NCBI RefSeq assembly: GCF_003851125.1
Contig: NZ_BGOW01000002.1
Span: 62,001 to 126,000 of the forward strand
DNA length: 64,000 bases
Source: Sulfuriferula multivorans
GTDB taxonomy: Bacteria > Pseudomonadota > Gammaproteobacteria > Burkholderiales > Sulfuriferulaceae
Direction of reading: 5' to 3'
Shown: positions 49,146 through 53,578 of the stretch, piece by piece
Layout: every line of letters starts with the position of its first letter
Position numbering within the stretch: the first letter of the stretch is position 1
Made by a program: the position numbers and the translations under genes
The notes under the pieces: model-generated
Told to the model about the DNA's origin: nothing
The model's database searches: none
Seen by the model: the letters and a program-made list of their open reading frames with translations, nothing else

Positions 49146-50048
49146 TTAACGGATCCGGTAGAACCGGTCTTTGACTTCCTTGCCTGGCGCGAGGTTATCA
49201 AAACGAGTGCCGATCGCATCGCCCAGCCTGGATAAGCGTTCGGCCGGTGCCGGGTGGGTTTTGAACAGCAGCGCAACGCGGCTGTCATTCGGTGCCGTGT
49301 GGCCGATCTCTTCCAGAACTGCAGGTAGGCCGTAGGGTTCATAACCGGCGCGTGCAGCGAGCACCACGCCCATGCGATCAGCGGCAAACTCGGCATTCTT
49401 ATCGAGCCCGCGCGCAACGATTTCAGCACCGCTACCGATCAGCTTCTGTACCGCCGCCTGATCTTTCGCCTGCTTCCCGAGGTACTGTGCGCCGAGGTTG
49501 AGCAACTGAGTCTGCTGCAGAATCTTGAGTTGATCCTTGTGCACGACGTGGCTGATTTCGTGCGCAAGCACCCCGGCCAGTTCCGCCTCGCTATTGAGCT
49601 TCTGATACAGCCCCTTGGTGACAAATACATACCCGCCGGGGGCTGCGAAAGCATTGATGTCGGTCGTATCGATTACGCCGAAATGCCAGGGCAGGTCCGG
49701 GCGATCACTCTGCAACGCGACCCAGCGCCCCACTTCGTTGACGTAGCGCTGCAGCTTGGGGTCCGGCACCAGCGGTGCGGCGCCGAGCAAATCGCCGGCG
49801 ATCTGGCGCCCGATGCGGATTTCATCATCCGTCGAGGTTTTTGAGAACGCCCCCAGAACGGTAGCCGCCGTATTGTCCTGCGTACTGGTCGAGTTGCCTG
49901 CCTCACCCGGATTCGTTTGCCGGAGCTCGGTTTGTTGCGGCGCAACCTGTTTGCGCAGCTCTTCTTTCAACAAGTCCTGCCAATCTGCCTGTGCAGCGCT
50001 GGCGGCAAACAGGGTCCCGATCGCAATGATCAATATGGATTTTTTCAT
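49146..50048 (-). CDS. M48-family metalloprotease, exported
   Basis: 300 residues with a signal peptide ending ASAAQA. The zinc motif HEISH lies in LAGVLAHEISHVVHKDQL, with the third ligand Glu in KNAEFAADRMGVVLAARAG. It resembles the BepA/YfgC group of periplasmic proteases but lacks the long TPR tail. ATG 50048 overlaps the stop of the SH3 gene by 1 nt. Role: envelope protein quality control, by family analogy. Confidence 0.9.
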   Translation of the reverse strand: MKKSILIIAIGTLFAASAAQADWQDLLKEELRKQVAPQQTELRQTNPGEAGNSTSTQDNTAATVLGAFSKTSTDDEIRIGRQIAGDLLGAAPLVPDPKLQRYVNEVGRWVALQSDRPDLPWHFGVIDTTDINAFAAPGGYVFVTKGLYQKLNSEAELAGVLAHEISHVVHKDQLKILQQTQLLNLGAQYLGKQAKDQAAVQKLIGSGAEIVARGLDKNAEFAADRMGVVLAARAGYEPYGLPAVLEEIGHTAPNDSRVALLFKTHPAPAERLSRLGDAIGTRFDNLAPGKEVKDRFYRIR

Positions 50049-50590
50049 TACTGCACCTCCCAGGAATTACTGCTGTTTGCACCGTTTGCTCTGGACGGAT
50101 CCGGCAAATACGCGACAGCCTGACGGGTAAGCCGTGCCTGGCCGGCAAACTGGCGCGCCGCACCTGCAGAAACCGAATAGGATGTGAGATCCTGGATACC
50201 ACGTTCGCTATATTTCGCAGTCTTGAGTTCTTCTTCGTTGAGCCCGCGCACGCCTGCCGTCGCCACGATATTACCGGGGCGACGCTGACCTGCCCGCGCC
50301 AAGCCCGCCAGATCCGACGCTGCATTCCCGCCGCCGCCCACGCTGCTGCGCACCGAGAACATGCGCACCCAGCCACGCGTACGTCCGCTGGTCACTTCCA
50401 CCCAGCCACCCTGGCGCGTTACCACTGTTACCTGGGTGCCGCGCGCCACTTTACCTACCGAGGCACTGCGCACTGCGGGTTTGGAATACAGGGTTTCATC
50501 CTTGATCAGCACGCCGCCCGCTGCCGCAGATGCGAGCGAGGTGCATAGCATACTGATCAGCAATAACCATTTTGCCTGTCTGATTTTCAT
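50048..50590 (-). CDS. Exported bacterial SH3-domain protein
   Basis: 180 residues from the ATG at 50590 (AGGAG 9 nt upstream; an ATG two codons earlier is too close). Signal peptide ending SLASA, then an SH3b domain (about 28-85; ETLYSKPAVRSASVGKVARG, TRGWVRMFSVR) and a low-complexity tail with GLNEEELKTAKYSERGIQDL. Translational overlap with the M48 gene suggests joint function in the envelope. Confidence 0.82.
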   Translation of the reverse strand: MKIRQAKWLLLISMLCTSLASAAAGGVLIKDETLYSKPAVRSASVGKVARGTQVTVVTRQGGWVEVTSGRTRGWVRMFSVRSSVGGGGNAASDLAGLARAGQRRPGNIVATAGVRGLNEEELKTAKYSERGIQDLTSYSVSAGAARQFAGQARLTRQAVAYLPDPSRANGANSSNSWEVQ

Positions 50591-50654
50591 CTTCATGATC
50601 TCCTTAACGGTTGACCATTCTAACCTCATACCAGTGTACTTGCGCATGGTAACC

Positions 50655-50684
50655 TTGCAACCCATACTTGCCCTGTTCGATAAT
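50655..50684 (+). promoter_or_regulatory. Promoter of the MCE lipid-transport operon
   Basis: TTGCAA (50655-50660), 18-bp spacer, GATAAT (50679-50684), then 11 nt to the mlaE-like ATG. No ribosome site is visible, so the leader would be about 5 nt. Confidence 0.5.
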
Positions 50685-50695
50685 TTTTTTAGACA

Positions 50696-51490
50696 ATGAA
50701 CGTGCTGGTTACCAGGATCGAAACCATCGGGAATGCTGTGATTACGCGCCTGCGGTCTGCCGCTGCGCTGGTCGATTTCGGCTGGCGTTTGCTGACTGTG
50801 GCGCTTAATCCACGCACTTACGACAGCGCCACGCGCTGGATTATTGTCAAACAGATTTATTTTACGGCGGTGCAGGCGCTGCCCATATATATGGCCTACT
50901 CGCTGGTCATCAGTGCAGTGATTATCCAGATCATGGTGACCGTGGCGCGCAATTTCGGATTGTCGGAGTATGTGCCTGGACTGATCGTGGGTTTCCTGGT
51001 GATGGAGTTGCTGCCGTTTTTATCAGTGCTGTTCGTAGCCCTGCGCTCGGGAGCGGCAATCAATACTGAAGTCGCGCTGATGCATGTCAACGACGAACTG
51101 ACGGCATTCGAGCATGCACATATTGATCCCATCCGTTATGAATTCATGCCGCGCGTGGTGGGTGGGGTTCTGTCGGTACTCGCGCTGACCGGCCTGTCGG
51201 TGCTTACGGCACTGGGGGTGGCCTTTTTCGTGATTTATGGCTTTGAACCGGTGAATTTCCCCGCGTATTCGCGTGCCATCGCCCATCTTCTGGCGTTTCC
51301 GCTGGTGTTCTGGCTGGTGCTCAAGACCACGCTGTTCGGGTTAAGCGTGACGCTGATACCGATCAAAACCGGGCTGGAAATTCCAAAACGCCTGTTTCTG
51401 GTGCCGGTAGCGGTACTCAAGGGCATGATGCGGGTATTCTTTGCCATCGTTCTGATCGAGGTTGCATCATTAGCTTTCAAATACATATAG
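50696..51490 (+). CDS. mlaE: MlaE-family ABC permease
   Basis: 264 residues with about five to six membrane segments and the MlaE/YrbE pattern: IIVKQIYFTAVQALPIYMAY, GLSEYVPGLIVGFLVMELLP and ALRSGAAINTEVALMHVNDE. Permease of an MCE lipid-transport system in the inner membrane. It is followed by an ATPase-like gene whose frame overlaps its end, an MCE protein and a lipoprotein, making a four-gene operon. The gene name is by family; it is not shown to belong to the classical Mla pathway. Confidence 0.88.
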   Translation: MNVLVTRIETIGNAVITRLRSAAALVDFGWRLLTVALNPRTYDSATRWIIVKQIYFTAVQALPIYMAYSLVISAVIIQIMVTVARNFGLSEYVPGLIVGFLVMELLPFLSVLFVALRSGAAINTEVALMHVNDELTAFEHAHIDPIRYEFMPRVVGGVLSVLALTGLSVLTALGVAFFVIYGFEPVNFPAYSRAIAHLLAFPLVFWLVLKTTLFGLSVTLIPIKTGLEIPKRLFLVPVAVLKGMMRVFFAIVLIEVASLAFKYI

Positions 51491-51945
51491 ATTGGTGCGC
51501 AGACGAGGCTGCACGACACGCCCGGCTGGCAGCGCTACTGGGCGATCAGGGCGACGCTTGTGCGCTGGTGTCACCAGAATTGCCGTTGCGGGTGAACCTG
51601 ACTGCGCTGGAAAACATCGCGCTGATCAAGCAATACCATCTCAACCTGTCCTGGACACAAGCCAGTGTGGACGCACAGCAACTGCTGGATCAATGCGGGC
51701 ATGGCGATGTCGCGATGAAGCGCGATGAAGACCTCACACCCACGCAGCGCTTTGCCGTCAAAATGGCGCGCGCAATGATGCTTGCACGACCGCTGCTGGT
51801 AATAGATCGACCCGCCGAGCTGTTGGCGGATACGCCCTATCCGAAGTTGCTGGTCACCATGCTGGGCAGCCTGGCCAACAAGCTTCCCGATCACCAGATA
51901 CTCGATTACGATTGGAACAAACCCTTATATCAGGGCGAGACATGA
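51469..51945 (+). CDS. Degenerate MlaF-like ATPase subunit (pseudo-ATPase)
   Basis: About 158 residues if started at ATT 51469 (GAGG 7 nt upstream); no ATG, GTG or TTG is available before GTG 51568, which would shorten it to 125 residues. The remaining homology to ABC ATPases is LTALENIALIKQYHLN (after the Q-loop), DLTPTQRFAVKMARAMMLAR (signature helix; LSGGQ reads LTPTQ) and PLLVIDRPAELL (Walker B, with the catalytic Glu replaced by Arg). There is no Walker A. The frame is intact, sits between permease and MCE genes, and overlaps the MCE ATG by 4 nt, so it is likely expressed. It should not bind or hydrolyse ATP in the usual way. Confidence 0.7.
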   Translation: MSFQIHIDWCADEAARHARLAALLGDQGDACALVSPELPLRVNLTALENIALIKQYHLNLSWTQASVDAQQLLDQCGHGDVAMKRDEDLTPTQRFAVKMARAMMLARPLLVIDRPAELLADTPYPKLLVTMLGSLANKLPDHQILDYDWNKPLYQGET

Positions 51946-52889
51946 ACACATCCATACAATTCAAAACAGGCCTGTTTCTAGTCTTCTTTACCATTTTGAG
52001 TACGGCCGCGCTGCTCTATCTGTTGTATGCACGCGGCACCTTTGAAAAAGAATCGCACTTCACGCTCCTTTCTGCCGATGCCACCGGTGTTGAGGCAGGC
52101 ACACCCATTGTTTATCGCGGCATTGCCATTGGCAGGGTGACGACAGTGTCCCTGAGTGATCTTGGTCTGGCGCTGGTGGCGATAACCATACCCGAGCGCG
52201 AGCACCGCTGGTTACGGACCTCCAGCGAGTTCACGCTCGACAAGCCCCTGGTGGGCGCCACCGTGATACGTCTTGATACGTCCACTCTGGATGACCCCCG
52301 GCTCGCCAATAACGCTATTGTTCCGCTCATACTGAACCCACCGCTGGATGTGCCGGCGCTGGTGGCCAAGGTCAACGGCATCCTCGATCAGCTGGGCGGC
52401 GTGAGCAAAAACCTGGCATACATCACGCGCAAGAACGGCGAAATCGATACCGCGCTGGTCAATGTCAAGACCATTACCACACAGATGTCCGGTAAATACG
52501 GCGTAGCGCAAGGCCTGTTGGGCAGCGAGCAGAACGCTCAGGTGCTGATGGATGCGCTCAACAATACGCGCAAGCTGACCGCAAATCTCGATGCCCTGTC
52601 AAAAAAACTGGATACCTGGGCGTTTTCCCAAGGCGGGGTAGCGGACAAGGCCGACCAGTCGCTGGCGCAAATCCAGGCCATGCTGAACGACCTGCACGTG
52701 AGCCTGAAAAAGCTGGATTCAATTCTGGTCAACGTCAACGGCCTGAGCGCCAATCTCAAGGATGGCACCGATGACCTCGGACAACTGCGCGGACAAGTGG
52801 ACGAAGCAGTAAGCAAGGCCAATCAGCTCATCACCAAAATCAACCGCATCCTGCCTTCCTCCAGACCCGGCGAGGTGAAGTTGCCATGA
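51942..52889 (+). CDS. MCE-domain (MlaD-like) lipid-binding protein
   Basis: 315 residues: N-terminal membrane anchor (about 8-30), one MCE domain (about 38-115; ATGVEAGTPIVYRGIAIGRV) and a long helical C-terminal region (about 145-310; VDEAVSKANQLITKINRILP) that could form a coiled coil or tube. MCE proteins hold lipids between membranes. ATG 51942 overlaps the pseudo-ATPase stop, and its own stop overlaps the lipoprotein start. Confidence 0.9.
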   Translation: MNTSIQFKTGLFLVFFTILSTAALLYLLYARGTFEKESHFTLLSADATGVEAGTPIVYRGIAIGRVTTVSLSDLGLALVAITIPEREHRWLRTSSEFTLDKPLVGATVIRLDTSTLDDPRLANNAIVPLILNPPLDVPALVAKVNGILDQLGGVSKNLAYITRKNGEIDTALVNVKTITTQMSGKYGVAQGLLGSEQNAQVLMDALNNTRKLTANLDALSKKLDTWAFSQGGVADKADQSLAQIQAMLNDLHVSLKKLDSILVNVNGLSANLKDGTDDLGQLRGQVDEAVSKANQLITKINRILPSSRPGEVKLP

Positions 52890-53578
52890 AAATCGTCTTC
52901 ATCCCGATTTTGAGTTTGCTGCTCGGCGCATGTGCCGGCCAGTCTGCGCCTGACTGGCAGTACGATGCGCAAACTGCGGCCACGCGCTATACGCAACACT
53001 ACCTGGCTGGGGATGTAAAACTCGCTGAGACCAGCTTTACCCAGGCGCGTAGCGCCGTCGCTGCAACGGGGGATATAGCCGCAGTCGGGCATATCGAATT
53101 GTTACGCTGCGGACTTCACGTCGCGTCCCTTGATTTTGCGCCATGCACCGGCTACACCGAACTCGCGGCTATCCGTACCACGCCCGCGGATAACGCTTAT
53201 GCCAGGTTCATCAGCGGTAACTGGCAAGGGATCGATCCCAAATTAGTGCCCGCACAATATGGCACTCTGATGGGAGCTGCCAACCTGTCCCAGGCCAATA
53301 TCAATCAGAACATAGTGGCGATTGCCGATCCGGTTTCGCGCCTGGTCGCCACCGGCATCATGGTCAGACGCGGGCAGTTCGATGCGGCCACCTTACAGGC
53401 CGCCGTAGATGTCGCTTCAAAACAGGGCTGGCGGCGTCCCCTCCTGACTTATCTGGGCTTGCAGGAAAAACAAGGCGGTGATGCAGCAACACTTGCCATC
53501 ATCGCCGCACGCATCCGTCTGGTGGAACAGTCCATGATGCGGCCAGCGGCGAAACCGGCTGCTGACACAACGAAGTAA
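52886..53578 (+). CDS. Lipoprotein of the MCE operon, unknown family
   Basis: 230 residues. A lipoprotein signal ends LSLLLGAC (lipobox), so it is lipidated and probably sits on the outer membrane facing the periplasm. The rest is helical with YDAQTAATRYTQHYLAGDVK and IVAIADPVSRLVATGIMVRR, reminiscent of TPR-like repeats. It does not look like the PqiC-type auxiliary lipoproteins that often accompany MCE genes. It overlaps the MCE gene by 4 nt. An outer-membrane receptor role is inferred. Confidence 0.8.
   Translation: MKIVFIPILSLLLGACAGQSAPDWQYDAQTAATRYTQHYLAGDVKLAETSFTQARSAVAATGDIAAVGHIELLRCGLHVASLDFAPCTGYTELAAIRTTPADNAYARFISGNWQGIDPKLVPAQYGTLMGAANLSQANINQNIVAIADPVSRLVATGIMVRRGQFDAATLQAAVDVASKQGWRRPLLTYLGLQEKQGGDAATLAIIAARIRLVEQSMMRPAAKPAADTTK

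Follow-up and report, generated by a model that had tools for sequence, protein, structure and literature searches.

A conserved ABC ATPase remnant with an AUU start codon in a third MCE operon of Sulfuriferula multivorans

Bacterial MCE operons of the Mla type pair a permease with an ATPase. In one such operon of Sulfuriferula multivorans, the ATPase position is occupied by a gene, here called pABC, whose product lacks the Walker A P-loop and whose start codon is AUU. The best explanation of our comparisons is that pABC probably docks beneath the permease as a dead nucleotide-binding domain (NBD), in an MCE system, the third of this genome, that would run without ATP. The operon lies in a stretch of 64,000 nucleotides (hereafter the window), and all positions below are counted from its first letter.

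Results

A third MCE operon without a working ATPase

The operon has the gene order permease-pABC-MCE-lipoprotein. Its first gene (50696..51490, + strand) encodes a 264 aa MlaE-family permease (Pfam MlaE, 4.5e-38) and is followed by pABC (51469..51945, +; 158 aa), by an MCE protein of the MlaD type with one MCE domain and a long helical C-terminus (51942..52889, +; Pfam MlaD, 1.3e-8) and by a lipoprotein (52886..53578, +). Permease and pABC overlap by 22 bases, and pABC/MCE and MCE/lipoprotein by 4 each (ATGA), in agreement with an earlier note on this DNA, which had described intact genes with overlaps of a few bases. By Pfam, the operon joins an MlaE-family permease to an MlaD-family MCE protein, as Mla-type systems do, and it has no working ATPase subunit: pABC is dead, and its gene is absent in 16 inspected relatives (see below). 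The window genome encodes three MlaE permeases, of which this divergent paralogue is the third. The other two MlaE operons, one mlaFED-like and one MpcEFDA-like (L070), carry intact ATPases, and we regard the operon described here as a lipid-transport system of its own, the third MCE system beside these two ATPase-driven ones. Adjoining the permease is a divergent gene for an SH3-domain protein (50048-50665, minus strand; Pfam SH3_3); an ORF resembling it recurs next to the operon in several congeners.

The lipoprotein, which the earlier note found unfamiliar as an MCE companion, indeed belongs to no known family. It has no Pfam or NCBIfam match, and its AlphaFold2 model, all-helical and confident (pLDDT 81.5), matched no fold in the PDB. 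Neither sequence nor fold matched the lipoproteins of Mpc and Pqi systems (PqiC, ABC-type transport auxiliary). Cys16 of the lipoprotein is nearly invariant. Most MCE proteins of the system (L160-L171) end in a conserved C-terminal motif like NEINKKWPFARDVEIKTP, with the variant INRILPSSRPGEVKLP in the window, and this motif may be a contact for the lipoprotein.

pABC lacks the nucleotide-binding half of an ABC domain

The earlier note had described the product of pABC as the mere outline of an ABC ATPase, with LTPTQ and LLVIDRP motifs and no Walker A, and the motifs are as it described. Against Pfam ABC_tran, the 158-residue protein scored 15.5 bits (cut-off 25), and the match began at model position 64, past the Walker A region. 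A profile of 28 pABC members searched against the PDB (hmmsearch) found ABC nucleotide-binding domains, the ArtP NBD (1.1e-9) among them, with an alignment that extends from the Q-loop to past Walker B. A structure search also led to the ABC NBD fold: Foldseek matched an AlphaFold2 model of pABC, of moderate confidence (mean pLDDT 63, ~80-90 across residues 41-100) and built from an input alignment of n=5 sequences, to ABC NBDs including MlaF with probability 1.00. Both sequence and fold thus indicate homology to ABC ATPases.

The motifs of a functional ATPase are missing or replaced. No Walker A P-loop is present in the window pABC or in any of the 28 aligned members. Ser35 (51571..51573, +) occupies the position of the Q-loop Gln in the profile alignment to ArtP (VFQ opposite lvs); LTPTQ (51733..51747, +) stands, by sequence and profile alignment, where the LSGGQ signature is expected; and in LLVIDRP (51793..51813, +) the Walker B Asp is retained and the catalytic Glu replaced by Arg. 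DRP or ERP was found in all 27 same-order members of the alignment (A4) and is missing only from the distant copy. Ahead of the Q-loop position pABC has ~33 residues, compared with ~80 in the ArtP chain, which means that the P-loop half is missing. We conclude from these comparisons that pABC is a 155-160-residue NBD remnant that has kept the half from Q-loop to Walker B and lost the nucleotide-binding half. The helical subdomain facing the permease belongs to the retained half.

pABC is a conserved family

When the 158-residue protein was searched against whole genomes, pABC was present in 8 of 17 sampled Sulfuriferula congeners at 56-79% identity, and the same query matched at 47% identity in another family. 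The remaining nine congeners (G002, G004-G010, G015), mostly with small genomes of 1.6-2.5 Mb, gave no pABC match. A profile search of the order detected pABC in 32 of 399 genomes. Of 80 genomes from one family, 73 carry the gene (51/52 among good ones), and one genome of another order holds a divergent copy of 154 residues. Extra matches obtained in the class with a wider profile were weak (42-50 bits) and lay in open frames of >220 aa, as expected of ordinary ABC ATPases.

Collecting the same neighbourhood in related genomes, as the earlier note had suggested, revealed a four-gene operon that is nearly always kept, with conserved degenerate motifs: permease, MCE and lipoprotein genes flank pABC in nearly all examined loci. 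An intact ATPase, MlaF included, was found at the pABC position in none of the relatives examined in the order and class samples. The note's view that decay is not the obvious reading is therefore borne out, and the data strongly support pABC as a real conserved pseudo-ATPase family rather than a case of local decay. That only the 3' two thirds of an NBD are left, and that the window offers no canonical start codon, could point to a pseudogene fragment or a sequencing artefact of an MlaF gene. The conserved family refutes this: length and motifs are maintained over several families, pN/pS within the genus is 0.2-0.4 outside the permease overlap, by which measure pABC is under purifying selection, and the start codon and ribosome-binding site are conserved. 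We give the pseudogene reading practically no chance.

The earlier note had also raised the prospect of a sequencing error that hides a Walker A in another frame upstream of 51469. The frame of 51469 is formally open further upstream in the window. The region is permease coding sequence, however, and in four congeners the frame is closed by a stop 3 codons 5' of the ATT; this excludes a hidden Walker A, and the conserved family excludes a sequencing error.

At a few loci pABC is detached from the permease gene, which might mean that it is no longer a transporter subunit and has taken up a regulatory role, for instance over operon expression or over MlaF, with its place in the operon a matter of history; a rare start codon, suggesting low abundance, would fit such a role. 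Yet the detached pABC genes remain beside the MCE and lipoprotein genes, the permease was found elsewhere in the genome in 3/3 cases checked, and the presence of pABC goes together with a conserved coupling region in the permease (see below). We consider a purely regulatory role improbable.

pABC starts at a conserved AUU codon

The earlier note had singled out an ATT as the only start ahead of a GTG, and this ATT proved to be the conserved start codon of pABC. In the window, no in-frame ATG, GTG or TTG lies between the permease stop and the GTG at 51568. The ATT (51469..51471, +) overlaps the rare permease codons TCA TTA (51467-51472), and a GAGGT ribosome-binding site (51458..51462, +) lies within the permease gene 6 nt 5' of it. 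Among 58 pABC genes of relatives, 42 have ATT at one fixed place, 16 have ATG nearby and none has neither. Each of the 42 ATT genes carries GAGG or AGGAG a few bases 5' of the ATT. Overlap with the permease is seen in 39/42, in 36 by exactly 22 bases as scored, the other three having been scored at a later in-frame pattern.

The permease codons that cover the ATT are TCA TTR, CTA TTA or, once, GCA TTA; the residue before the Leu varies, its codon always ends in A, and the ATT is constant. These are rare choices: elsewhere in nine overlapping high-GC operons, TCA accounts for 0-4% of Ser codons and TTA for 0-1% of Leu codons. Permeases of pABC-less relatives encode the same Ser-Leu as TCG CTC, TCG CTG, TCC CTG, AGC CTC or TCC TTA and never contain TCA TT. 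Where the permease is separated from pABC, it has TCG CTG in two of three cases and retains TCA TTA in the third; among pABC genes separated from the permease, three retain the ATT and its ribosome-binding site and two have ATG. Over pABC codons 9-33, from the permease stop to the first internal canonical start, pN/pS is 0.39 in the pABC frame, compared with 1.5 in the two alternative frames, and the N-terminus of pABC is therefore translated.

Translation could in principle arise by frameshifting from the permease, from another near-cognate codon or from an internal GTG, TTG or ATG. Some canonical codon does occur in the searched N-terminal stretch of 16/42 ATT genes, and in two detached copies a TTG or GTG is found farther 5'. 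Against such origins stand the protein-coding selection on codons 9-33, the lack of any canonical start in that stretch in the other 26 ATT genes, an in-frame stop 3-4 codons upstream in seven ATT genes, and the fact that these genes never show ATC or ATA at the start, though most are at 61-71% GC. Frameshifting from the permease was rejected because the ATT and a good ribosome-binding site persist in detached copies, where it is impossible. An origin other than the AUU is thus very improbable. A conserved ATT behind a ribosome-binding site, together with a translated N-terminus, identifies pABC as an AUU-initiated gene, and we conclude on this comparative evidence that its start is AUU with its own ribosome-binding site.

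The infC gene of the window genome (L175, C30:22977-23483) starts at ATC behind the Shine-Dalgarno sequence ACAGGAG; it has an in-frame TGA 7 codons upstream, and no ATG, GTG or TTG lies between this TGA and the ATC. From this start, the organism very probably uses start codons of such a rare kind.

Loss of pABC coincides with relaxation of the permease coupling region

The lipoprotein, which served as a marker, was found in 66 of the 399 genomes searched in the order, and no pABC was detected in 35 of these 66. In 16 pABC-less loci that we inspected (L206-L221, several families of the order), the permease gene is followed at once by that of the MCE protein, and the ~2.4 kb upstream contained nothing like an MlaF ATPase, bar an unrelated ABC ATPase in L207. 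This three-gene form (permease-MCE-lipoprotein) also occurs in one genome of another order. The three-gene operon of L226 (G678:C7:63500-69500, another order) adjoins densely spaced CRISPR-like repeats, which read FNPHPARRPGAV when translated. A maximum-likelihood tree of 65 permeases, drawn with a midpoint root and with canonical MlaE taken as outgroup, set canonical MlaE apart (100/100) and placed pABC-bearing permeases basally and the pABC-less ones in a single nested clade (99/95). Because the pABC-less permeases are nested within the pABC-bearing ones, a single loss of pABC following its origin is the most likely course.

MlaE touches MlaF via a coupling helix between TM2 and TM3 (eLife 62518). 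Alignment to E. coli and P. aeruginosa MlaE places this coupling helix region, the MlaF docking site, at residues 116-139 of the window permease (51041..51112, +). Mean pairwise identity over these residues is 0.69 among permeases with pABC, 0.61 among canonical MlaE and 0.30 in the pABC-less clade, compared with 0.55, 0.42 and 0.53, respectively, over the first membrane part (residues 40-112). A Mann-Whitney comparison of the loop with the rest gave p=1.7e-5, with sites that are not independent. In the pABC-less clade, a second permease region (~221-253) has lost conservation to the same degree as the coupling helix; it may be another NBD contact or reflect a general change in that clade. The pattern in the coupling region is as expected if pABC docks in the place of MlaF and if nothing docks there after pABC is lost.

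The earlier note had offered two options for the permease, a borrowed ATPase or a structural partner in an ATP-independent bridge. If a borrowed MlaF drove the system by ATP, pABC could serve to bring intact MlaF to the third permease or to regulate it there, as an adaptor or as the partner in a half-site. The two intact MlaF-type ATPases of the window genome are in principle available in trans, at least two further canonical-type MlaE permeases are present in nearly all pABC genomes tested, and the coupling helix is retained where pABC is present. However, at 30% identity the coupling region of the pABC-less clade seemingly docks no ATPase, and yet permease, MCE protein and lipoprotein persist, which speaks against the borrowing of MlaF, at any rate in this clade. 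Moreover, pABC has neither a P-loop nor an LSGGQ and, from general knowledge of ABC dimers, should complete neither half of an ATP sandwich. We therefore find a borrowed MlaF unlikely and favour the structural partner, because it is the pABC-less clade that has lost conservation of the ATPase-docking helix.

Discussion

We propose that the ATPase subunit of this system was first reduced to pABC and then dropped wholly in one clade. Where it is kept, pABC would bind the cytoplasmic coupling helices of the permease as a dead NBD, and a place under the permease as scaffold or gate is quite likely. Lipids would then cross a bridge of permease, MCE protein and lipoprotein without ATP hydrolysis by the complex; we lean, with somewhat less assurance, toward a system that moves lipid without ATP. 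The complete disappearance of the remnant in one later branch suggests that the transporter of the third system works without burning ATP.

The AUU, at a cost to the permease of only rare synonymous codons, would keep pABC synthesis low and coupled to translation of the permease, and synthesis from it would perhaps be sensitive to IF3. We advance only tentatively that the AUU limits how much pABC is made and that it may be subject to IF3. Its regulatory purpose is a guess, and the overlap alone forbids an NTG at this site unless the permease Leu changes.

In its broadest form, our proposal is that an ABC lineage gave up ATP, its NBD becoming a dead docking subunit that was then lost in one clade, its permease becoming a passive or otherwise powered lipid channel, and the dose of pABC being set by a conserved AUU that IF3 discriminates against. 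This whole chain is a possibility that we hold a little less probable than its opposite. If true, pABC would join infC and pcnB as a third gene with a conserved AUU start.

What powers MCE systems, and in which direction they move lipid, is an open question in the field. The related permeases form a natural series, with an intact ATPase, a dead remnant or none, in which relatives can show what the ATPase is for. An AUU start kept over several families, even after rearrangement, adds one more instance of selected non-AUG initiation that can be tested independently, and gene finders restricted to ATG, GTG and TTG starts would miss or mis-start genes like pABC.

The E. coli MlaFEDB/MlaFEDCB system resembles the operon in its MlaE-family permease, MCE protein, co-encoded ABC-type subunit and coupling helix between TM2 and TM3 (eLife 62518). 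It differs in having a working ATPase, MlaF, partnered by MlaB (STAS), whereas pABC has neither Walker A nor the catalytic Glu; the operon described here has no MlaB or MlaC but does have a lipoprotein. The nearest architecture is that of MpcEFDA, the chimeric Mla-Pqi system of Brucella, whose single operon encodes a permease, an ATPase, a long-needle MlaD-type protein and a lipoprotein (PMC12436622). There, MpcF has been described as a well-conserved MlaF-like protein, MpcE has a STAS domain and MpcA is PqiC-like (PMC12436622); here, in contrast, the ATPase, where present at all, is dead, and the lipoprotein is of no known family. PqiABC and LetAB (YebST) are likewise MCE bridges with an inner-membrane protein and no ATPase (PMC12436622), but they use PqiA or LetA where this operon uses an MlaE-type ABC permease. 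Finally, infC and pcnB, reported as the sole AUU-start genes of E. coli (PMC9410913), share with pABC a rare AUU start on a conserved gene; pABC is functionally unrelated to them, and its AUU lies within a 22-nt overlap with the preceding gene.
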